A DNA stretch of 64,000 nucleotides from Glycocaulis albus (GTDB lineage: Bacteria > Pseudomonadota > Alphaproteobacteria > Caulobacterales > Maricaulaceae), in the NCBI RefSeq assembly GCF_014639075.1, contig NZ_BMFS01000004.1:1-64000 (forward strand), given 5' to 3'. The notes beneath the pieces were generated by a model that saw only the letters and a program-made list of their open reading frames with translations, did no database searches and was not told the origin of the DNA. Below are positions 1,410 through 60,204 of the stretch, piece after piece (within the stretch, counting starts at the first letter, position 1; the number at the start of each line of letters is the position of its first letter). The position numbers were made by a program, and so were the translations under genes.

Positions 1410-2396
1410 ATGGGTGACCTGTCCTTCATCATTGCTGCAATTGCCGCCTTCGTGGCCGTGGCGGGTGTAGGCCTTGCGTTCACCGGTGGTGGCAACAAGC
1501 GCCAGGCCCAGCGTGTGCAGGTCGCCGTTGGCGCACCTCTGCACGCCGGCAAGCGTCAGACCAGCGCTCTGGACCAGACCGCACAGAAAAAACGTCAGGT
1601 CCAGGAAACACTCAAGGAGCTGGAAGAGCGCCAGAAGGCGGCCCGCAAGCGCGCCTTCACATTGCGCGCGAAGCTGGAGCAGGCAGGCGTAAGCTGGACC
1701 CCGCAGCATTTCTGGATCGCGTCGGCCGTTATTGGCGTTGTGGCGGCCTTCGCCGTGTTTGCGGCCGGCATGAATGTGCTTATCACCCTGTCGGCGGGGT
1801 TTGTTGCCGGGCTGGGGTTGCCGCGCTGGGTCGTCGGCTTTCTGGTGGCTCGCCGTCAGAAGCAGTTCGTGAACAATTTTGCCGACGCTATCGACATTGT
1901 CGTACGCGGCGTGAAGTCGGGCCTGCCGCTGAACGAGTGCCTGAAGATCATCGCGCGTGAAAGCCCGGAGCCGGTCCGCACCGAGTTTGCCAAGCTCAAT
2001 GAAAACATCGCCGTAGGCGTTGATCTCGATGAAGGCATGCGGCGCATGACCCAGCGCATGCCGGTTTCTGAACTGAACTTCTTCGCCATTGTGCTGGTCA
2101 TTCAGGCAAAAACCGGCGGCAACCTGGCCGAGGCGCTCGGCAATCTTTCAGCCGTGCTGCGCGCCCGCAAGCTGATGGGCGAGAAGATCCAGGCCCTGTC
2201 CTCCGAAGCCAAGGCCTCGGCCATGATCATCGGCGCGTTGCCCCCGCTTGTGCTGTGCATCGTGATGGTTGTTGCCCCGGACTATATGGGCCTCATGTTC
2301 ACCCATCCGCTGGGGCAGCTCATGCTGCTCGGCGGGTTGATGTGGATGGGCATCGGCATCCTTGTCATGCGCGGCATGATCAACTTCAAGCACTAG
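1410..2396 (+). CDS. tadB: Tad pilus inner-membrane platform protein TadB
   Basis: Predicted GspF/T2SSF-family membrane protein that pairs with TadC as the platform for the CpaF ATPase. The 328-residue product begins with a membrane segment, has a basic Q/K/R-rich cytoplasmic stretch (about residues 45-90), two further hydrophobic segments, the conserved T2SSF region (residues about 150-265, with the LPLNECLKIIARE-type helix and EGMRRMTQRMP), and two C-terminal membrane helices. The ATG at 1410 has a GGAGG about 10 nt upstream inside the end of cpaF. It is the second gene of the pilus segment, 12 bp before tadC. Confidence 0.92.
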   Translation: MGDLSFIIAAIAAFVAVAGVGLAFTGGGNKRQAQRVQVAVGAPLHAGKRQTSALDQTAQKKRQVQETLKELEERQKAARKRAFTLRAKLEQAGVSWTPQHFWIASAVIGVVAAFAVFAAGMNVLITLSAGFVAGLGLPRWVVGFLVARRQKQFVNNFADAIDIVVRGVKSGLPLNECLKIIARESPEPVRTEFAKLNENIAVGVDLDEGMRRMTQRMPVSELNFFAIVLVIQAKTGGNLAEALGNLSAVLRARKLMGEKIQALSSEAKASAMIIGALPPLVLCIVMVVAPDYMGLMFTHPLGQLMLLGGLMWMGIGILVMRGMINFKH

Positions 2397-2408
2397 GGCC
2401 TCTACGCG

Positions 2409-3386
2409 ATGGTCACCCAGTTCGCCCAGTGGATCACGACCCCGGCCAATCTGTTCGGCCTGCTCGCCTTCTTTCTGGTGTTTGCCACGGTCATTACCGT
2501 GTCCGGTCCGGCCATGGGCGGCAACAAGCTGGACAAGCGGATAAAGTCGGTGGCCAACCGGCGCGAGGAGCTGCGCCGCAAATCACGCGAAGCGCTGGAG
2601 CTTGAGGCGCGTGGCGGAACCTTGCGCGGCAAGGACACGCGCTCCTTGTTCCGCAAAGTCGTGGAGAGCCTCAACCTTCAGACCCTGCTGGAAGACCCCA
2701 ATCTGAAGAGCAAGCTGATACAGGCGGGCATGCGCGGGCAGGGGCCGGTCTTTGTCTTCTACTTTGCCCGCCTGATCGCGCCGATTGCGCTCTTTGGCCT
2801 GTCGCTGGCCTATCTGTTCCTGCTCAACGATTTCGGCCTGCCGACCATCCAGCGCCTCGCCATCGTCATGGGTATGACCCTGCTGGGCTATTATGCGCCG
2901 GGCATCTACCTCTCCAATGCTGCCCAGAAGCGGCGTGACTCCATCATGCGGGCGTTCCCGGATGCCCTCGACCTTCTGCTCATCTGTGTGGAAGCGGGCA
3001 TGTCCATCGAGGCTGCGTTCCAGAAGGTGGCCGCAGAAGTGGGCACCAGCTCCATCGAACTGGCCGAGGAATTGTCGCTGACAACAGCCGAGCTTGCTTA
3101 CCTGCAGGACCGGCGTCAGGCGTACGAAAACCTCGCAATGCGCACCAACCATCCTGGTGTGAAGGGCGTGGCAACGGCGCTGGTGCAGGCCGAACGCTAC
3201 GGCACGCCGCTGGGTCAGGCGCTACGTGTGATGGCCAAGGAAAACCGCGATATGCGCATGGCGTCAGCCGAGAAAAAGGCCGCCGCCCTGCCTGCCAAGC
3301 TGACCGTACCGATGATCGTGTTCTTCCTTCCGGTCCTGTTCGTCGTCATTCTCGGCCCGGCCATCATCTCCTTCCAGGAGATGTGA
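2409..3386 (+). CDS. tadC: Tad pilus inner-membrane platform protein TadC
   Basis: Second GspF-like platform protein of the Flp/Tad pilus machine. The 325-residue product has an N-terminal membrane helix, a charged cytoplasmic region rich in K/R/E (residues about 40-90), paired hydrophobic segments near 115-170, the T2SSF domain (FPDALDLLLICVEAGMSIEAAFQKVA region) and a C-terminal membrane hairpin ending near the stop. It closely parallels TadB in architecture, as expected for this pair. No good Shine-Dalgarno is visible, so translation may depend on coupling to tadB. It is the last pilus gene seen here; the next element is an unrelated riboswitch. Confidence 0.92.
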   Translation: MVTQFAQWITTPANLFGLLAFFLVFATVITVSGPAMGGNKLDKRIKSVANRREELRRKSREALELEARGGTLRGKDTRSLFRKVVESLNLQTLLEDPNLKSKLIQAGMRGQGPVFVFYFARLIAPIALFGLSLAYLFLLNDFGLPTIQRLAIVMGMTLLGYYAPGIYLSNAAQKRRDSIMRAFPDALDLLLICVEAGMSIEAAFQKVAAEVGTSSIELAEELSLTTAELAYLQDRRQAYENLAMRTNHPGVKGVATALVQAERYGTPLGQALRVMAKENRDMRMASAEKKAAALPAKLTVPMIVFFLPVLFVVILGPAIISFQEM

Positions 3387-3419
3387 GTGCGCTTGACGCA
3401 TCAGCAACATTGCGGCTAA

Positions 3420-3608
3420 CCCTGTTGCCGGTGGTGCTCCCGCGAGGGAGCTAAGAGGGAACACCGGTCAGGGGTTTTTCCCCAAGTCCGGGACTGTGCC
3501 CGCAACTGTAGGCGGCGAGCCTTGATGCCAGAAGCCACTGGGAGCGATCCCGGGAAGGCGGCATCGAACAAGGCGTTGACCCGCAAGTCAGGAGACCTGC
3601 CACCGCAG
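3420..3608 (+). promoter_or_regulatory. Cobalamin (B12) riboswitch aptamer
   Basis: The segment carries the conserved cobalamin-riboswitch blocks in order: a GCCGGTGGTGC-type P3 start, GAGGGAA with the following CACCGGT, the CCGGGACTGTGCCCGCAACTGTA core (B12 box region, about 3488-3512), GCCACTGGG and GGGAAGGCGG, and the 3' block GACCCGCAAGTCAGGAGACCTGCC (about 3578-3601). It lies immediately upstream of the btuF-C-D-B operon on the same strand, so adenosylcobalamin or a related corrinoid is expected to turn the uptake genes down. Confidence 0.93.
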
Positions 3609-3799
3609 TCGCTTGTGCAGGACCGGGTCCAGTCCTTCGGCACACGGATTTACTCCGTCATGGCGGCAAACATCCGGGCCATACGGCCTGCGCTTTGCGT
3701 TTCGCGTGTCTTCGCGAGGCGTGTGGCGCAGCAACCGTAAGCCCGAAACGTTTGTAGCGGGCCGGCTTGCCGTCCCGCAGGCGAGGCGGGGCGTTGGCC
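3609..3799 (+). promoter_or_regulatory. Long leader between B12 aptamer and btuF (expression platform)
   Basis: About 190 nt of untranslated leader separate the aptamer from the btuF ATG. It contains several short inverted repeats, including ACGGA/TCCGT near 3646-3660 and GGCCATACGGCC near 3676, and ends with a GC-rich stretch (CCCGCAGGCGAGGCGGGG) that could hide the weak btuF ribosome site. No U-tract terminator is visible, so control of translation start is more likely than transcription termination. This is inference from sequence only. Confidence 0.45.
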
Positions 3800-4636
3800 A
3801 TGCGCGTGCGTATATTGCTGATTGCGATCGTCGGTCTGCTGCTCACAAGTGCGGCTCAGGCCCAGCCGCAGCGCATCGTGTCGCTGGACTATTGCGCCGA
3901 CCAGTATGTCCTGGGGCTGGCTGACCGCAGCCAGATCGCTGCGCTTTCACCGGATGCAGACGCAGATTACTCGTCCCATGCCGCACTGGCAGAAGACCTC
4001 CCGCAGGCGCGTCCGCTTGCCGGGGAGATACTCGCGCACCGGCCCGATCTCGTTGTGCGCAGCTGGGGTGGGGACACGCGTATTCTGGCCCTGTTCGAGC
4101 GGCTCGGTATCCCGGTCCACCAGATCGGGTACATCTCCGACTTTGACGACATACGCCGCGAGACCCGCGCCGCCGCTGCCGCCTTCGCCCGCGAGGACCG
4201 GGCAGAAACGCTGCTGGCAGAGATGGACCGGGCATTGGACCGCGTAACGCCTCTGGCGGGCGTGGATGCGCTCTACGTGACGCCCGGCGGCGTAACGGCC
4301 GGGCAGGGCACCTTTGTCGATGCGCTCTTGCGGGCAGCAGGCCTGCGTAACACCGCCGGCGGGCTTTCCGGCTGGTCCAGCCTGCCACTGGAAGCCGTTG
4401 CCCTCCGCAGGCCCGATATCTTCGTCACCGGCTTTTCAAACAGTGCGACGGACCGGGTGGACCGCTGGAGCGCCAGCCGTCACCCGGTCATGCGCCGCGC
4501 CCTGAGCAGCCGTCCGGCCTTCACTCTCGATACCGGCGTGATCGCCTGCACCACATGGCTTGCCGGCCAGGAAGCCGCACGTCTCGGCGGCTTCGTGCAC
4601 CAGCAGTCCTTCAACATTACGGGAAACCAGCCATGA
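3800..4636 (+). CDS. btuF: Cobalamin ABC transporter periplasmic binding protein (BtuF-like)
   Basis: Predicted periplasmic corrinoid-binding protein delivering substrate to BtuCD. I start at the ATG at 3800, which gives a clean signal peptide (MRVRILLIAIVGLLLTSAAQA); an upstream TTG at 3767 would put a basic extension before it. The mature part shows the helical-backbone metal/corrinoid receptor pattern: RIVSLDYCADQYVLGL near the start, LPQARPLAGEILAHRPDLVV, and PGGVTAGQGTFVDALLRAAGLRN in the second lobe. Length is 278 residues, normal for the family. Its stop overlaps the btuC start by 4 bp. A siderophore-type ligand cannot be excluded from the protein alone, but the riboswitch points to B12. 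Confidence 0.88.
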   Translation: MRVRILLIAIVGLLLTSAAQAQPQRIVSLDYCADQYVLGLADRSQIAALSPDADADYSSHAALAEDLPQARPLAGEILAHRPDLVVRSWGGDTRILALFERLGIPVHQIGYISDFDDIRRETRAAAAAFAREDRAETLLAEMDRALDRVTPLAGVDALYVTPGGVTAGQGTFVDALLRAAGLRNTAGGLSGWSSLPLEAVALRRPDIFVTGFSNSATDRVDRWSASRHPVMRRALSSRPAFTLDTGVIACTTWLAGQEAARLGGFVHQQSFNITGNQP

Positions 4637-52224: not shown

Positions 52225-53271
52225 CTAATCCTCAAACATGTCCGCAAAGCGCCGGCGCGGACGGTTTTTCCACGCGCCGCGATGGAACACGTCAGAGACG
52301 ATGACCGGGGCCACGGTGGTGGCTTCGGCAAACACCATCTGCTCCAGCGTGACATCGACCTTGCCCCAGGAGCAGGCCTCTTTCAGCGTGGAGGAGGAGC
52401 AGGCGCCGTCACGCACATCGGCGACCGTGATCTGCACCGCGTATTCGTGCATCGGCACCTCATGGCCGAGGATCTCGGCGCAAACAACAGTATCCTGCGC
52501 GAAGTTCTTCGGCACGCCGCCGCCGACCATGAACAGGCCCGTCTTGCCGGCCTTGATCTTGATGTCGGTCAGCTCGCGGAAATCGGCCACTGCGTCGATG
52601 GAGAGATAGGGCTTGCCCGCCTTCATGCGCTCGACCTGGTGCTTGACCAGGCCAAAGCCTGCCGAGCAGTCGGCAAAGGCCGGCACGAAGATCGGCACGC
52701 CATGGCGATAGCATTCCTCGATGAGGGAGCCTTCCTTCTTGGCGTTGCCGTCGGCCAGCCACTTGCCCATCGCCTTGATGAAGGCGCGGGACGAAATCGG
52801 CTTGGCGTCGAGGCTGTCGGCAATATCACCGATGGTATGGTCGGTGGTCTGCAGCTCTTCCTCGTCGATATAGGTATCGTAGATCCGGTCGATATAGAGA
52901 TCGCGCAGGATGCGGTCGTCCGGAATTTCGCGTGCCTGATAGTGTTTGAAGCCCAGAGCCTCGAAGAAATCCATGTCGACGATGGACGCGCCGGTGGCCA
53001 CGATGGCATCGACCATGTTGTTGCGGATCATGTCGCGCCAGACATGCATGCAGCCGCCCGCGCTGGTCGAGCCGGCGAGGGTGAGGATGACCGAGCAGTC
53101 CGGATCGGCAACTGCTGCCTGCAGGATACGCGCAGCGCGCGCGGCATCACGGCTGGAGAAGCTCATCTTCTCCCACGCATCGATGATCACGCGGCCATCA
53201 AAGCTGGCAATATCGATGTGCTCGACCGGGCTGGCCAGCAGCTCGGCCTTACGATTCGTATTATCTGTCAT
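52225..53271 (-). CDS. Deoxyhypusine synthase-like protein (probable homospermidine/polyamine enzyme)
   Basis: NAD-dependent aminobutyl-transfer enzyme fold of the deoxyhypusine synthase family. Bacteria lack hypusinated eIF5A, so such proteins usually make polyamines such as homospermidine. The 348-residue product has TLAGSTSAGGCMHVWRDMI, the VPIFVPAFADCSAGFGL segment, FMVGGGVPKNF, and SWGKVDV (301-304) where Lys304 matches the catalytic lysine of DHS. It is translated from an ATG 3 bp after the stop of the ornithine decarboxylase gene, so putrescine production and use are linked. Confidence 0.85.
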   Translation of the reverse strand: MTDNTNRKAELLASPVEHIDIASFDGRVIIDAWEKMSFSSRDAARAARILQAAVADPDCSVILTLAGSTSAGGCMHVWRDMIRNNMVDAIVATGASIVDMDFFEALGFKHYQAREIPDDRILRDLYIDRIYDTYIDEEELQTTDHTIGDIADSLDAKPISSRAFIKAMGKWLADGNAKKEGSLIEECYRHGVPIFVPAFADCSAGFGLVKHQVERMKAGKPYLSIDAVADFRELTDIKIKAGKTGLFMVGGGVPKNFAQDTVVCAEILGHEVPMHEYAVQITVADVRDGACSSSTLKEACSWGKVDVTLEQMVFAEATTVAPVIVSDVFHRGAWKNRPRRRFADMFED

Positions 53272-53274
53272 TTA

Positions 53275-54525
53275 CTAGCGTCTCTTGATCAGGCGTTGCC
53301 GGCGGCGTCGCAGCCGGGTGAAGGGGACGACCGAGCCTTCCGCAGCGGGCTCGCTTTGGGGCGAGGCCAGCACGGGCTGATCGTACAGCGAAAGCCAAGG
53401 GTAGTCGGAAACCGTGACAGTCTCCACATCCCCGAAGCCATTGAAGCGGGTGGCCATCGCGGTGCCGTAGGCGCCCAGCATGCCGAACTCGATAACATCG
53501 CCTTCCTTCAGGTCGGCGGGCAGCTCGTACGGGCCTGGCATGGAATCGATGGAATCGCAGGTCGGGCCGTAGAGCTTGAACGGCGCGGTCTGCGGGCTCA
53601 GCTCGCCATTGGCACGATGAACGCGCATCGGATAGCTCCAGCGCGCATGCACGATGTCAAACAGGCAGCCATAGGAGCCGTCATTCATGTAGACGGCATC
53701 GCCCTTGATCAGCTCCACACGTGTCAGCACGGATACAGCCTCGGCAACCAGCGCGCGGCCCGGCTCGCACCACAGATCGGCATTTTCAAGGACCATCATG
53801 TCCTCGAAGGCGTGCTCGATTGCTTTGACGTAGTCTTCCAGCGGGGGCGGGGTGAGGCCGGGATAGATGGACGGGAACCCCCCGCCCACATCCACGATAT
53901 CCACTGTCACACCGGCGCGCGCGATCAGGCGCGAAGCCTCCATCATGGCCGCGCGGTAGGCGCTAGGCGCCATGCACTGGCTGCCGACATGGAAGCTCAC
54001 GCCCAGCTCGAAGGCATGTGCGCGGGCCAGCCGGATGAGGTCCGGGGCCTCGGCCTCGGTTGCGCCGAACTTGCCGGCCAGCGGCAGGGTCGCCCCGTCA
54101 TTGGAAACGGCCAGGCGCACGACCAGCGTCAGGTCGCGGGCATAGCCGGTTTCCTGCAGGATTTTCTGCAGTTCGGCTTCGCAATCGAGGACGAAGATCT
54201 TCACGCCATGGTCGTGATAGGCAGACGCGATGGCGCGTCGGCTCTTCACCGGATGCATGAAAGCCATCGTGGCTTCGGGGCACCGGCTGGAAATCAGCTC
54301 GACCTCCGGCAGGGAGGCGACGTCGAACCAGCGATGACCGGCCGCGTACAGCGTGTCAATCACCCACGGCGAAGGATTGGCCTTCACGGCGTAAAGGACT
54401 TCACCCGGAAAATGTTCCTGGAACCAGCGGGACGCTACGGCCAGACGGTCAGGCCGCGCGCACGCGACCGGGCCATCGACGGGCCGAAGGCGGACCAGGT
54501 CCAGGGGCGTTTGGTGCTCGGACAA
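53275..54525 (-). CDS. Ornithine decarboxylase (alanine racemase-fold)
   Basis: PLP enzyme decarboxylating ornithine to putrescine. The PLP lysine is in YAVKANPSPW (Lys48), HVGSQ (179-183) and VDVGGGFPSIYPG follow, CEPGRALVAEA binds the phosphate, and YGPTCDSID (319-327, Cys323) is the ODC active-site signature. Length is 416 with a basic C-terminal tail (RLRRRRQRLIKRR). The start is a TTG at 54525 with AGGGGG 9 nt upstream; I see no in-frame ATG before the nearest upstream stop. Lysine/ornithine dual activity is possible. It precedes the DHS-like gene by 3 bp. Confidence 0.88.
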   Translation of the reverse strand: MSEHQTPLDLVRLRPVDGPVACARPDRLAVASRWFQEHFPGEVLYAVKANPSPWVIDTLYAAGHRWFDVASLPEVELISSRCPEATMAFMHPVKSRRAIASAYHDHGVKIFVLDCEAELQKILQETGYARDLTLVVRLAVSNDGATLPLAGKFGATEAEAPDLIRLARAHAFELGVSFHVGSQCMAPSAYRAAMMEASRLIARAGVTVDIVDVGGGFPSIYPGLTPPPLEDYVKAIEHAFEDMMVLENADLWCEPGRALVAEAVSVLTRVELIKGDAVYMNDGSYGCLFDIVHARWSYPMRVHRANGELSPQTAPFKLYGPTCDSIDSMPGPYELPADLKEGDVIEFGMLGAYGTAMATRFNGFGDVETVTVSDYPWLSLYDQPVLASPQSEPAAEGSVVPFTRLRRRRQRLIKRR

Positions 54526-54742: not shown

Positions 54743-55543
54743 ATGGCATCGGTGGACCCGGCCCTGTCGGTCGACAGGGTCACCAAGACTTACGGCACGG
54801 CCGTCGCGCTGTCGGATGCAAGTTTGAGTGTCCAGCCCGGCGAGATGGTCGCTCTTATCGGCGCGTCGGGCTCGGGCAAGTCGACGCTTTTGCGTCTGGC
54901 ATCCGGTCTGGTGCTGGCTGATTCCGGTTCCGGCGCTATCCGTCTTTTCGGCGAAAAGGTTCAGGAAAACGGGAAGCTGTCGGCGCGTGTGCGCCGGGCG
55001 CGGGCAAAGGTCGGCTTCATCTTCCAGCAGTTCAATCTGGTTACCCGCGCCAGCCTCTACGCCAACGCCATGCTCGGCTCTCTCGGGCAGATTGCGCCGT
55101 GGCGCGGCATTACCGGCTCGTTTCCCGATGATGTGCGCAAGCGGGCCATGGAGGCGCTTGAGCGCGTCGGCGTGGCCGGCCATGCCGGCAAGCGTGCGGC
55201 CAACCTCTCCGGCGGCCAGCAGCAGCGCGGCGCCATTGCCCGCGCGCTCGTTCAGCGCGCCGAAGCCATTTTTGCCGACGAGCCTATCGCCTCGCTCGAC
55301 CCCGTGTCCGCGCGGCGCGTGATGCGCCTTCTGGCCGAGCTTAACGAGCAGGACGGGCTTACCGTCGTGGTGACGCTCCACCAGGTGGACTACGCGCTGA
55401 AATATTGCCGCCGGGCGGTCGCGCTGAAGGCGGGCAAGATCATTTATGACGGCCCGATATCCGGGCTTACCCGTGAACGCCTGATCGAAATCTATGGTGA
55501 CGAATACCGCGACGTGATGGACGAGGAGCCTGTACGCGCATGA
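54743..55543 (+). CDS. phnC: Phosphonate-type ABC transporter ATP-binding protein (PhnC-like)
   Basis: ATPase for phosphonate or phosphate-ester import. From the ATG at 54743 (GGAGGGG 8 nt upstream) the 266-residue product has Walker A GASGSGKSTLLRL (residues about 40-52), FIFQQFNLVTRASLYANAMLG typical of PhnC, signature LSGGQQQRGAIARAL, Walker B AIFADEPIASLDP and VVVTLHQVDYA. It overlaps the fused binding-protein/permease gene by 4 bp (ATGA). A half PHO box (CTGTCA, 54610-54615) lies upstream. Confidence 0.92.
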   Translation: MASVDPALSVDRVTKTYGTAVALSDASLSVQPGEMVALIGASGSGKSTLLRLASGLVLADSGSGAIRLFGEKVQENGKLSARVRRARAKVGFIFQQFNLVTRASLYANAMLGSLGQIAPWRGITGSFPDDVRKRAMEALERVGVAGHAGKRAANLSGGQQQRGAIARALVQRAEAIFADEPIASLDPVSARRVMRLLAELNEQDGLTVVVTLHQVDYALKYCRRAVALKAGKIIYDGPISGLTRERLIEIYGDEYRDVMDEEPVRA

Positions 55544-57543
55544 TGATCCTCGTCCGCATTCTGGGCGCCCTTGCGCTTGCTTGTGCCAGCGGTGCCGCCA
55601 TCGCGCAGGAGCGCGAGCGCATCGTGTTCTCTGTCATTTCCACCGAGCAGACAGAAGCGGTTGAAGCCCTGTGGCAGCCCTTCGTGGAAGATATGGAGGA
55701 GACCACCGGGCTGGAGGTCGAGCTGGTCTCTGCCATTGACTATGCCGGCGTGATCGAAGCCATGCGTTTTGGTCAGGTCGATGTAGGCTGGTTCTCCAAC
55801 CTCTCCGGCCTGCAGGCCATCCGCCTTGCCGATGCCGAAGTTTTCGCCAAGACGCTCTATCCCGGCGGGCAGGAGGGGTATCGCTCCGTCATACTGGTGC
55901 GCGATGACAGCCCTATCCGCACACTGGAAGATCTGCTGGTCTGTGACGGCTCGCTCTCCTTTGCCCTGGGCGATCCCAATTCCACCTCCGGCACGCTGGT
56001 GCCGCTGGCCTACATTTTCGCGCCGCGCGGCATTGATCCGCAGTCCTGCTTCTCGCAGGTCACCAACGCCAATCACGAGCAGACCGCGCTGGCGGTCGTG
56101 AACGGGTTTGTAGACGCGGGCACGAACAACACCACCAATCTGGACCGCCTGCGCCAGACCCGGCCGGAGGCACTGGCAGACCTGCGCATTTTGTGGACCT
56201 CGCCGCTGATCCAGACCGACCCGATTGTCTGGCGCCGTGATCTGTCCGAGGAGGTCAAGTCCGAGCTGCTGTCCTTCTTCCTGACCTACGGCTTTCGCGG
56301 CGATGCCGCCCAGCGCGAGTACGAGCAGGCGATACTGGAAGACCTGTTCCTGGGCGGTTTCCTGCCGGCCACTGACGAACATCTGCTGCCGATCCGGCGG
56401 CTGGAGCTGATGCGCGACCTGGCCGAGACGCAAGCCAGCGACGCGCTGGAAGAGGGCGAACGGGCAACGCGGCTGGAGCAGGTAGAGCTGGCCATGCGTG
56501 AGCTGGCCGTCGAAGAACGGCGCGTCGCCGTGCGCGATCTCGCCGATGACCTCATCGAGGCCCGCGGCCGCATGGAGGCCGAACCGGACGCTGCCAGCGC
56601 CGACATCAACACGCTGGTCTCTGCCTTCCTGTCTGCCCAGCCCCGCATCGAGGTCGAGCGCCGCATCCGGCGGGTGACGGCCAGCGAGCTGACGCGTGGC
56701 CTTATCGGCCTCGGGGCCGGTCTTGCCCTTTTCACACTCCTGATGATCCGCTCGCGCCCGCCGCGCTTTGGCCCGTCGCGGCTGATGAGCGACCGTCTGA
56801 TCGATGCAGCTATCTGGTCGGGTCTGTTCGGCCTGCTGATCTGGAGCTTCTGGCCGGCGGAAATGTTCAAGCTGCCGCTTCTGGGCACGAATGCACCGCG
56901 CATGGGCGAGTATATCGCCGGCTTCTTCCAGCTCGATCTCGATGGCTGGGAGACCTATGCCCGCCAGACCCTCATCACGGTGCAGATCGCGCTGTGGGGT
57001 ACGGTGGTGGCCGTTATCGCGGCCATTCCGTTCGGCCTGCTGGCTTCTCGCAATATCGCGCCTGTCTGGATCGTGCAGCCGGTGCGCCGCCTGATGGATG
57101 CCTTCCGCGCCATCAACGAGCTGGTTGTGGCGGCGATTTTCGTGGCGGCGGTCGGCCTTGGCCCGTTTGCCGGCGTGATGGCCCTGGCCCTGCACACCAC
57201 AGGCGTTCTCGCCAAGCTGTTCTCCGAGGCCGTGGAGGCGATTGATGACGGCCCGGTGGAGGGCGTGCGCGCAACCGGGGCCGGACCGATGAACGAGGTG
57301 GTCTGGGGCGTGATCCCGCAGGTCATTCCGCTCTGGGCGTCCTACGCGCTCTACCGGTTTGAATCCAACACGCGCGCGGCGACCATTCTGGGGCTGATTG
57401 GCGCGGGTGGTATCGGTCAGGTGCTGATCCAGAACATCCGCTCGTTCGAGTATGGCAAGACGGCCACCATCCTGCTCATCATCATTGCGGCAGTGACAGC
57501 GGTGGACCTGATCTCGCAAATGCTACGCAAGCGGCTGGTCTAG
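55540..57543 (+). CDS. Fused phosphonate-type binding protein and permease (PhnD-PhnE)
   Basis: One 667-residue chain that joins two normally separate subunits. Residues 1-22 are a signal-like helix. Residues 24-290 are a PhnD-type binding domain (SVISTEQTEAVEALWQPF; VDVGWFSNLSGLQAI; DPNSTSGTLVPLAYIF). Residues about 290-385 form a charged, coiled-coil-prone linker. Membrane helices follow at about 386-403 and 421-438, then the permease domain (470-660) with LNELVV-like RAINELVVAAIF, the EAA-type loop EGVRATGAGPMNEVVWGVIPQ (574-594) and GLIGAGGIGQVL. The frame is continuous with no sign of a sequencing join. Substrate could be phosphate, phosphite or phosphonate. Confidence 0.9.
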   Translation: MMILVRILGALALACASGAAIAQERERIVFSVISTEQTEAVEALWQPFVEDMEETTGLEVELVSAIDYAGVIEAMRFGQVDVGWFSNLSGLQAIRLADAEVFAKTLYPGGQEGYRSVILVRDDSPIRTLEDLLVCDGSLSFALGDPNSTSGTLVPLAYIFAPRGIDPQSCFSQVTNANHEQTALAVVNGFVDAGTNNTTNLDRLRQTRPEALADLRILWTSPLIQTDPIVWRRDLSEEVKSELLSFFLTYGFRGDAAQREYEQAILEDLFLGGFLPATDEHLLPIRRLELMRDLAETQASDALEEGERATRLEQVELAMRELAVEERRVAVRDLADDLIEARGRMEAEPDAASADINTLVSAFLSAQPRIEVERRIRRVTASELTRGLIGLGAGLALFTLLMIRSRPPRFGPSRLMSDRLIDAAIWSGLFGLLIWSFWPAEMFKLPLLGTNAPRMGEYIAGFFQLDLDGWETYARQTLITVQIALWGTVVAVIAAIPFGLLASRNIAPVWIVQPVRRLMDAFRAINELVVAAIFVAAVGLGPFAGVMALALHTTGVLAKLFSEAVEAIDDGPVEGVRATGAGPMNEVVWGVIPQVIPLWASYALYRFESNTRAATILGLIGAGGIGQVLIQNIRSFEYGKTATILLIIIAAVTAVDLISQMLRKRLV

Positions 57544-57582
57544 GGGGCCGCCTTCAAGATGACGTACACGTGACAGATATAT

Positions 57583-57614
57583 CGGCAAGATGTCACACAG
57601 CTGACATCTTGCCG
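57583..57614. promoter_or_regulatory. PHO-box-like site within a perfect 13 bp inverted repeat
   Basis: CGGCAAGATGTCA (57583-57595) is exactly complementary to TGACATCTTGCCG (57602-57614) around CACAGC. Inside it, ATGTCACACAGCTGACAT (57590-57607) matches 13 of 18 positions of the E. coli PHO box CTGTCATAAAGCTGTCAC. GTGACAG at 57570-57576 is an extra half-site. It lies between the fused transporter gene and pstS. It could bind PhoB, form a transcript-end hairpin, or both; no U-run follows. Confidence 0.55.
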
Positions 57615-57658: not shown

Positions 57659-58801
57659 ATGAAGCTCGCTGTCCTGTCTTGCGTCTCTGCCATTGCTATC
57701 TCGCTGGCTATGGCGGCGCAGAGCGCCGAAGCGCAATCGCGTGATTCGATCCGCATTGTCGGCTCATCTACCGTGTTCCCGTTCACCACGGCGGCCTCGG
57801 AGAATTTCGGTTCGACCTCCGGCTTCCGTACGCCGGTCGTGGAATCAACCGGTACCGGCGGCGGCATGAACCTGTTCTGCGCCGGTGTTGGATTGCGTCA
57901 CCCGGACATTACAGGCGCATCGCGCCGCATGCTGCCGACCGAGTTCGAGCTTTGCCGCCGCAATGGCGTGACGGCCATTACCGAGGTGCCGATCGGTTTT
58001 GACGGTATCGTTGTGGCGCGCGCAAGCGGCTCGCCGGCGATCGATTTCGAACGCCGCGAGCTTTTCCTGGCTCTTGCCGCGACCATACCGATGCCGGTGG
58101 ACGCCGATGGCGCGCCGGTATTTGATGCCAGCGGAGCTTTGCTGAACGGGCGCGATTTCAATGATGTCGCAGCCTATTCCTGTGAGGCCTTCATCCCCAA
58201 CCCGCACCGGCTCTGGTCCGATGTTTCCAACGATCTGCCCAGCGACCGTATCGAAGTGCTCGGACCGCCCCCGACCTCGGGTACGCGCGATTCCTGGATT
58301 GAGCTAGGCATCCATCCCGGTGCCCGTCAGATCGAATGCATGGATGCACTGCGCAGCAGCGACGCCGACCGCTTCGACGAGGTGGCGAGCCGCATGCGCG
58401 AGGATGGCCCGTGGATCGATAGCGGCGAAAACGACAACGTTATCGTCCAGACGATTGCCAATTCCGCGACCGCCTTCGGCGTGTTCGGCTATTCCTATCT
58501 CGAACAGAATGCCGACCGTCTGACAGCGGCCACGATCGAAGGCGTCGAGCCGGAATATGACGACATCTCCGAAGGTGTGTATCCGATCGCCCGTTCCATG
58601 TTCGTCTACGTGAAGAACCAGCACGTGTCTGCCGTACCGGGTATCGTGGAATGGATTGAGGAGCTGACCAGCGAGGATGCGTTCGGTCCGTTCGGATATC
58701 TGGCTGACCGGGGCCTTGTTGCCCTTCCCGAGGCACGCCGCGAAGAAGTGCGCGAGCAATCGCAGGCGCTGACACCGCTGACGGGAATCGATTCGCACTA
58801 G
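57659..58801 (+). CDS. pstS: Phosphate-binding protein, PstS family
   Basis: Periplasmic phosphate-binding protein. From the ATG at 57659 (GAAGGG upstream) it is 380 residues with a signal peptide (MKLAVLSCVSAIAISLAMA). Typical phosphate-site segments are visible: IRIVGSSTVFPFTTAASENF, VESTGTGGGMNLFC, IGFDGIVVA and PPTSGTRDSWIELG. There are four to five cysteines, unusual for the family, which may pair in the periplasm. pstC, pstA and pstB are not in the window; the neighbour upstream is the PhnC/PhnDE-type transporter. Confidence 0.9.
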   Translation: MKLAVLSCVSAIAISLAMAAQSAEAQSRDSIRIVGSSTVFPFTTAASENFGSTSGFRTPVVESTGTGGGMNLFCAGVGLRHPDITGASRRMLPTEFELCRRNGVTAITEVPIGFDGIVVARASGSPAIDFERRELFLALAATIPMPVDADGAPVFDASGALLNGRDFNDVAAYSCEAFIPNPHRLWSDVSNDLPSDRIEVLGPPPTSGTRDSWIELGIHPGARQIECMDALRSSDADRFDEVASRMREDGPWIDSGENDNVIVQTIANSATAFGVFGYSYLEQNADRLTAATIEGVEPEYDDISEGVYPIARSMFVYVKNQHVSAVPGIVEWIEELTSEDAFGPFGYLADRGLVALPEARREEVREQSQALTPLTGIDSH

Positions 58802-58902
58802 CCGCATTTAATGTCATCAACGCGCCGTTAAGCCCGGCAGGGTTATCCTGAACGCATGGCGGGACCTGTGGCCCGCATGGCGGCAAGGGCTTGACGCGCG
58901 TA

Positions 58903-60204
58903 ATGATTGGACGCCCCGTAACCTATCACCGGCTCTCGCAGGACGAGGTCGACAATATCTGCCAGCGTCATGCCAATCTGTTGCAGGGGCGCATGAATGG
59001 CGCACGCGCGAGTTTCGCCTACAAGGTGATCGAGGGGCTCGACCTGTCGGGGCGCAATCTGTCTGACGCCGATTTTTCAGGTGCGGTATTGGCTGGCGCC
59101 AATCTGGCCGGTACCAATTTTACCAGCGCAAACCTTTTTGCGGCGGACATGCGCCGCGCCAATCTCGCGGGCGCGACATTGCGCCGGGCCGACATGCGCG
59201 GTGCGATCCTGAGGGGGGCCAACCTCACCGGAGCCGATCTCAGTCAGGCCGATCTGCGCGAAGGCGCCATTGCCCAGGTGGACCGGGAAAAGGGTCTCGC
59301 CATCATTACGCATGAGCAACGCCCCAACGAGGCCGTGGAGGCCAATTTCACGGGCGCCAACCTGTCCAATTCCAAAATGACCGGCGCTATCGCCCAGCGC
59401 GCGGATTTTTCCGATGCGGTGCTGATCGGCGCGCGCATGCAGCGCGCGAACTTGCGTGGCTCGCGCTTCCCCGGCGCCAATCTGGAAGGCGCTGACCTTT
59501 CCGGCGCAGACCTTACCGAAGCTGACCTGTCGCACACCGTGCTTATCGGCACGAAGCTCGATTCCGCACGCACTCGCGGCATGTGCACTGACGGCGCCCT
59601 GACCGACACCCCCACCGGCCCCGAACTGGCGGCCAATGCCGATGAGACGGCGAAGGCACTGGAAGCCCACGCGCTCTGGTGTGAGACCGGCGGCAAGCAA
59701 GGTGCCCCATCCACGTTCGATGGCGCGGACATGCGCGGCCTGAAAACGCTCTCGGGGCGCAATCTGACGGCCTTGCAGGCGCGCGGGGCAACCCTCTACG
59801 GGCTGGATCTGGGCGGTGCGCAGTTGCAGGGCGCGCGCCTTGAAAGAGCCGATTTGCGCATGGCTTCCTTGCGGGGCGCAGACTTGCGCGGTGCAGACCT
59901 CACGGGCGCCCGGCTGAACAATGCCGATCTGCGCGGCGCCAAGATCGGTGCGCTATTGCTGCCCAACGACCGCAAACTGGCCGCCAGCCTGGCTGCCGCC
60001 GTGCTGCGCTATGCCGATCTTGATGGCGCGGACTTACGCGATATCAGCGCGACAGGCGCGGACTTTTCATACGCCAGCCTGAAAAATTGCGATGTGCGCA
60101 GGGCGCGCTTCACCGGCTCATGCTTTACCGGCACCAAACTTCCCGGTGATTTTCGCGAGCACGCGGAGGATCTTGCCGGCGCCGTGGACCTGGACGCCGC
60201 CTGA
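58903..60204 (+). CDS. Two-block pentapeptide-repeat protein
   Basis: A 433-residue protein dominated by A(D/N)LXX repeats that form right-handed beta-helices. Block 1 covers about residues 45-230, block 2 about 280-410. Each block is preceded by a similar short motif with a His and a small Gly/Ala cluster: HANLLQGRMNGARASF at the N-terminus and HALWCETGGKQGAPSTF in the middle, which suggests internal duplication. Two cysteines (MCTDG, LWCETGG) lie between the blocks. No signal peptide or enzyme domain is seen. I use the ATG at 58903; a TTG at 58891 is also possible. Function unknown. Confidence 0.85.
   Translation: MIGRPVTYHRLSQDEVDNICQRHANLLQGRMNGARASFAYKVIEGLDLSGRNLSDADFSGAVLAGANLAGTNFTSANLFAADMRRANLAGATLRRADMRGAILRGANLTGADLSQADLREGAIAQVDREKGLAIITHEQRPNEAVEANFTGANLSNSKMTGAIAQRADFSDAVLIGARMQRANLRGSRFPGANLEGADLSGADLTEADLSHTVLIGTKLDSARTRGMCTDGALTDTPTGPELAANADETAKALEAHALWCETGGKQGAPSTFDGADMRGLKTLSGRNLTALQARGATLYGLDLGGAQLQGARLERADLRMASLRGADLRGADLTGARLNNADLRGAKIGALLLPNDRKLAASLAAAVLRYADLDGADLRDISATGADFSYASLKNCDVRRARFTGSCFTGTKLPGDFREHAEDLAGAVDLDAA

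Follow-up and report, generated by a model that had tools for sequence, protein, structure and literature searches.

Receptor and permease of a Phn-type importer are encoded as a single polypeptide, with an additional transmembrane-like segment separating them, in Glycocaulis albus and relatives

The receptor of Gram-negative importers is typically soluble and freely diffusing (PMC9732360), and some Gram-negative receptors are lipid-linked to the membrane or tethered to the translocator (PMC8025302). The DNA analyzed in this study (the window) comprises the first 64,000 nucleotides of contig NZ_BMFS01000004.1 of Glycocaulis albus, and it contains a frame in which the binding protein and the permease of a phosphonate-type importer appear as a single polypeptide. 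The questions raised by this locus are whether the fusion is real, how such a chain would cross the membrane and what it would carry. Its features are as follows, in window positions.

54743 to 55543, + strand: phnC, ATPase (best NCBIfam matches are PhnC models; PF00005 above cut-off)
55540 to 57543, + strand: phnDE, receptor-permease fusion of 667 aa (frame and Pfam/NCBIfam profiles)
55540 to 55605, + strand: putative signal sequence (residues 1-22), cleavage probable behind A22 (sequence and relatives, by eye)
55627 to 56412, + strand: PhnD receptor domain, residues 30-291 (Pfam, NCBIfam and solved-chain matches)
56413 to 56574, + strand: PhnD C-terminal helical part, residues ~292-345 (homology up to 322-333; helix in a low-confidence model)
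56575 to 56691, + strand: linker, residues ~346-384 (family alignment)
56692 to 56748, + strand: extra transmembrane-like segment, residues 385-403 (hydropathy scan)
56809 to 57537, + strand: PhnE permease domain, residues 424-666 (NCBIfam TIGR01097)

The phnDE frame extends from its ATG for 667 residues without an internal stop, and phnC lies directly upstream, its TGA (55541-55543) overlapping the phnDE start (55540). The NCBIfam PhnD model TIGR03431 matched residues 9-291 with 265.3 bits (cut-off 261.1, a narrow pass), the PhnE model TIGR01097 matched residues 424-666 of the same chain with 285.1 bits (cut-off 216.7), and Pfam agreed (PF12974 at residues 30-281, PF00528 at 495-666). Three relatives scored below the TIGR03431 cut-off of 261.1 (L039, 256.8; L056, 201.0; L096, 222.1), and the TIGR01097 cut-off was passed by all five relatives tested. 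The PhnC-like ATPase reached 263.3 bits with TIGR02315 (cut-off 266.1) and 278.9 bits with NF007438 (cut-off 365). His157 of E. coli PhnD corresponds to H179 of the window protein and was kept in 31/31 family sequences, and the invariant columns of the family alignment include the permease region that we take to be the EAA loop. No second match to the PhnDE protein was found in its own genome at E ≤ 0.001. With both profiles above their curated cut-offs in a single frame, the fusion of a complete PhnD receptor to a complete PhnE permease, which the first-pass annotation had proposed, is real.

The family of the organism was searched in 137 genomes, of which 50 matched and 87 did not. The DNA of all 50 was inspected, and both domains were found in one stop-free frame in 48 (30, L001-L030, and a further 18, L154-L171); the remaining two (G014 and G136) held only distant, unfused PhnE-like genes. 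The stop-free fused frame was kept within the family down to ~50% identity. Ten loci from metagenome assemblies of Oceanicaulis, Glycocaulis, Maricaulis and Robiginitomaculum were likewise all fused; these are copies of loci already counted and were not counted again. Since independent family genomes carry the same stop-free frame, an assembly error joining two genes, which had been named earlier as a possible undoing of the fusion, is excluded.

Outside the family, the DNA of 101 genomes was compared; these were taken from the order, class and phylum matches listed, long-looking frames first, and do not give an unbiased rate. Fusions were present in six of them, each from one genus of the same order (g21, family f3), and the other 95 were unfused, including two (L080 and L141) with no usable PhnD in the DNA piece compared. 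Apparent long frames suggesting fusions in many alphaproteobacterial families were rejected, as stops were present between the genes (e.g. G708, G652, G706, G503, G812, G485 and G549), and only stop-free frames were therefore counted. A census of genus g21 covered 131 genomes, of which 130 matched, and gave at least 22 stop-free fusions, including the same six, the count being based on the DNA of the best 30 loci. One of the 22 (L178) ends at a contig end, and four have a TGA within the match that falls outside the open frame holding both domains. The fused gene of another g21 genome (G1193, locus L196) is broken within the permease part, with the pieces in different frames. The PhnDE protein matched 1056 of 72,556 plasmid records; those of the matches listed that carry gene names show two distinct features for phnD and phnE, or a single one of the two. 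Other phyla were covered by a contig scan with short patterns only. No description of a PhnD-PhnE fusion was found in the accessible literature, most subscription journals lying outside its reach; in that literature 'phnDE' occurs only inside longer gene strings like phnDEC and phnDEEC. As to how common the architecture is, a point the first-pass annotation had set out for checking, it is fixed among the carriers of this family, occurs in part of g21, was unseen in 95/101 of the genomes compared from beyond the family and did not turn up in the accessible literature.

The two domains had been described as joined by a charged linker of 95 residues. A linker is present, and part of the stretch is normal PhnD C-terminus: E. 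coli PhnD aligns up to window residue 322 and P. aeruginosa PhnD (3n5l) up to residue 333, so that the whole stretch was dropped as a candidate for new sequence. By alignment, it is partly ordinary PhnD tail and partly an extension seen in the close relatives of the window protein. The linker is poorly conserved and variable in length, 28 columns being missing in 8 of 11 aligned family proteins. An AlphaFold model (11-row alignment, mean pLDDT 50.7) placed helices at residues 279-299, 305-345, 349-365 and 383-404; it was used for rough helix positions only, as with a mean pLDDT of ~51 it cannot test topology.

The earlier description had also overlooked the hydrophobic segment at residues 385-403. 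Segments of this kind were scored with a 19-residue Kyte-Doolittle window at a threshold of 1.6, already in use before the census. Such a segment, lying between the receptor and the permease, was present in 70/70 fused genomes (37/37 distinct fused sequences, 18/18 further family genomes and 22/22 g21 genomes, six of the latter being already among the 37), the weakest of the 37 (L005) just reaching 1.60. In the 93 separate pairs, 33 PhnD tails had the length needed for scoring and none of them passed, and one of 76 PhnE N-termini (L064) did; the reading of these N-termini began close to the stop codon of PhnD, so that the segment in L064 may precede the actual start of PhnE. In the g21 fusions, a proline-containing stretch and the helix stand in place of the usual PhnD tail.

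PhnE-type permeases start in the cytoplasm, and a periplasmic receptor placed ahead of PhnE thus needs one more membrane crossing. Helix 385-403 would bring the chain back to the cytoplasm and so keep the permease in its orientation, which would solve the topology problem left standing in the first-pass annotation. The net charge flanking the helix in the window protein is +2 before and +3 after, and with positive charges on both flanks the positive-inside rule lends the helix little support. The occurrence of a helix at the same place in each fused form suggests that a membrane helix is a strict requirement for the receptor-first domain order.

The N-terminal segment of the window protein finishes in a signal-peptidase-I-type end (A20-I21-A22, followed by Q23), similar ends were seen by eye in relatives, and the segment looks like a cleavable signal. 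The ALAC motif of the window protein matched a loose lipobox pattern and was rejected as a lipobox, the -3/-2 positions not being classical; it was read as a signal peptidase I site. Genus g12 carries a lipobox with its cysteine in 18/18 genomes (L014, L154-L159 and L161-L171), which implies an exported N-terminus and a lipid anchor. The receptor of g12 would thus be anchored twice, as the sequences suggest, by the lipid and by the membrane helix. The earlier suggestion that the N-terminal helix could be an uncleaved anchor is not supported, in view of the signal-peptidase-I-type end and of the g12 lipobox. Of the 22 fused g21 genomes, 15 (L180-L182 and L184-L195) carry another, unfused PhnD frame ahead of the fusion and in the same direction, and those 15 would have a free as well as a tethered receptor; two of the seven genomes without it (L178 and L183) have short loci. 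In L095-L097, the free PhnD copy is ~60-64% identical to the fused PhnD.

Taken together, we consider it probable that the chain is exported with its signal cut, that the extra helix runs from outside to inside and that two chains join two PhnC subunits in what is probably a phosphate importer. The N-terminal signal would export the chain and then be removed, and the PhnD domain would fold in the periplasm. Helix 385-403 would lead the chain inward through the membrane, so that PhnE would reach the cytoplasmic face oriented as usual, and two PhnDE chains with two PhnC ATPases would form a transporter with two tethered receptors. The natural reading of the fused frame would be tethering with a fixed 1:1 stoichiometry of receptor to permease. 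Importers usually have the receptor in excess (PMC9045158), and the fusion gives up that excess, which counts against the tethered-importer explanation. In the accessible parts of the literature, a search for structures supporting a PhnD dimer gave none.

A poorly conserved linker of variable length would also suit a chain that is made whole and then cut in the linker by a periplasmic protease, freeing PhnD, so that the fusion merely equalizes the amounts of the two proteins. We regard such release as improbable: the extra membrane helix is kept in all fused genomes, and the separate phnD of the 15 g21 genomes would be redundant if the fusion itself yielded a free receptor.

Whether the two fused groups, the family of the window's organism and g21, share one origin was examined on trees of PhnD and of PhnE. 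These were built from 107 of 130 distinct pairs (23 near copies, duplicates and partial sequences were omitted by hand) and were unrooted. Fused and separate states required two changes for PhnD and for PhnE; well supported branches force two changes on the PhnD tree and only one on the PhnE tree. Approximately unbiased (AU) tests on 40 rows rejected a single clade of all 15 fused proteins (p 0.00019 for PhnD and 0.00011 for PhnE), and the thinned 40-row trees needed three changes. Two origins are thus a minimum count.

Unrooted trees cannot separate gain from loss, and both fused groups lie within one order. A fusion already present in the ancestor of the order, and later separated into two genes in most lineages, would fit these two facts, and we nevertheless judge it very improbable. 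Two changes suffice on the 107-row trees (three on the 40-row trees) and a single fused clade was rejected by the AU tests. As the g21 fused group sits deep among separate pairs, a single origin would need many splits. No trace of the extra helix was found in the separate pairs except in the doubtful L064, and the helices of the two fused groups are unlike in sequence when compared by eye. At least two separate fused groups therefore stand in this order, and the fusion is conserved and probably convergent. The fuller statement, that the Phn fusion arose at least twice, each time with a new helix running from outside to inside, in what is now a phosphate importer, and that one genus added a lipid anchor and another kept a free receptor beside the tethered one, seems to us about evenly balanced between right and wrong.

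Receptor-permease fusions are an established kind, known from GlnPQ, OpuA and EgtU, of which the PhnD-PhnE chain is a variation. GlnPQ of Gram-positive bacteria likewise has receptor domains and permease in one chain, with two chains per transporter (PMC8025302); it differs in having amino acids as substrate and two tandem receptors, and on the side of the receptor fusion the paper uses 'N-terminally' as well as 'C-terminally'. In OpuA of Lactococcus, each permease chain carries one receptor, attached by an anchoring transmembrane helix and a short linker (PMC11065425), as in the window protein; unlike there, the receptor is listed behind the permease in the order of the chain (TMD, scaffold, SBD), the substrate is glycine betaine and the host is Gram-positive. 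EgtU of Streptococcus pneumoniae also carries permease and receptor in one chain (PMC9732360), with the permease first and the receptor second, ergothioneine as substrate and, again, a Gram-positive host. The 17 solved chains matched by sequence were phosphonate-, phosphite-, arsenic-oxyanion- and related binding proteins, with no GlnP among them; the NCBIfam matches were Phn-type or distant, and no sequence homology to GlnP or OpuABC was found in either set. The likeness to GlnPQ and OpuA is, as far as sequence comparison goes, one of architecture. By sequence, the counterpart is E. coli PhnCDE: both window domains are full members by profile and a PhnC-like gene lies just upstream, whereas PhnD and PhnE are separate genes in E. 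coli.

In E. coli PhnD, T14, E177 and D205 form a cap that fits 2-aminoethylphosphonate, with E177 holding the amine (PMC5700983). The corresponding positions in the window protein are T35, T199 and D227, so that the T/E/D cap is incomplete, in a further difference from E. coli. The glutamate was absent in 79/79 aligned members of the order, fused or not, and present in 45/51 sequences from other orders. The C-P lyase component PhnJ was not found in the organism's own genome (an E. coli positive control matched), and it scored above cut-off in 0/137 genomes of the family, where a single weak match fell short of the cut-off. Across the order, PhnJ was above cut-off in 18/398 genomes, none of them among the six fused g21 genomes initially found; G166 and G139, which both carry PhnJ, have a different copy of PhnE some 10 kb away from it, and the locus considered here is on a separate contig. 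PhnW was not found in the organism's own genome, and PhnX gave one weak match there, below cut-off; none of 14 control genomes passed the cut-off for PhnW or for PhnX.

The DNA downstream of phnDE contains three further features.

57559 to 57576, - strand: PHO-box-like site, weak, 3 mismatches (motif scan)
57590 to 57607, + strand: PHO-box-like site, weak, 3 mismatches (motif scan)
57659 to 58801, + strand: PstS-like phosphate-binding protein gene (PF12849 above cut-off)

The PstS-like gene scored 112.3 bits against TIGR02136 (cut-off 206.6), and it neighbors 11 of the 22 related loci listed, fused or not, several of these loci being partial. The two weak PHO-box-like sites lie together downstream of phnDE, and none of the matches listed lies upstream of phnC; six matches were found in the window against 3.4 expected, a number reached by 11/100 shuffles and not significant. 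Elsewhere in the organism's own genome, a PstC gene was above cut-off, with a second, weaker match adjoining. In locus L150 on contig C5 of this genome, a PstC-type permease frame of 567 aa (700-2403) is followed by a further permease frame (2396-3880), and in each of them the permease part is preceded by a long charged extension with hydrophobic stretches at its borders.

E. coli PhnCDE transports phosphate (PMC6469041), and picocyanobacterial PhnDCE, a Phn-type importer whose host likewise has no known phosphonate pathway, has been proposed to carry it (PMC10284923); the PhnD1 studied in the latter is a binding protein on its own, unlike the fused receptor here. In view of the missing E177, the lack of PhnJ, the PstS-like neighbor and the phosphate transport reported for the first of these two systems and proposed for the second, the likelier substrate is by inference inorganic phosphate, or else a wide range of phosphorus compounds, and 2-aminoethylphosphonate is probably not carried.

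The first-pass name 'phosphonate-type' holds for the family to which the proteins belong and is doubtful for the substrate, given T199 in place of E177 and no PhnJ above cut-off in the family. An importer of phosphonates proper, for 2-aminoethylphosphonate or another phosphonate feeding a pathway not recognized here, would agree with the phosphonate name of the family models, with the two cap residues that are kept as T35 and D227, and with the weak PhnX-like match. Set against these are the replaced glutamate throughout the aligned members of the order, the results for PhnJ and PhnW, and the PhnE copy of G166 and G139 that sits near PhnJ and apart from this locus. We therefore think a phosphonate substrate unlikely, though it deserves some weight, and prefer phosphate or a wide range of phosphorus compounds.

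Further genes flank the locus in the window. Two adjoining genes (52225-53271 and 53275-54525, both on the - strand) encode a protein matching the 1,9-bis(guanidino)-5-aza-nonane synthase model (560.6; cut-off 500) and a PLP-dependent decarboxylase; a gene for the latter also adjoins the phnDE-type locus in several relatives. A pentapeptide-repeat protein of 437 residues is encoded at 58891-60204 (+ strand).

If this account is true, a phosphorus importer would have given up its free receptor at least twice in Gram-negative bacteria. The surprise would lie in the repeated pairing of the fusion with a new helix and in the range of anchoring states within one order. The label 'phosphonate transporter' may misname the substrate in this order. 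Relatives whose receptors are free, tethered, both free and tethered or, probably, anchored twice would allow uptake rate and affinity to be compared, and with close separate-gene relatives at hand they would offer a natural experiment on free and tethered receptors in the Gram-negative periplasm.
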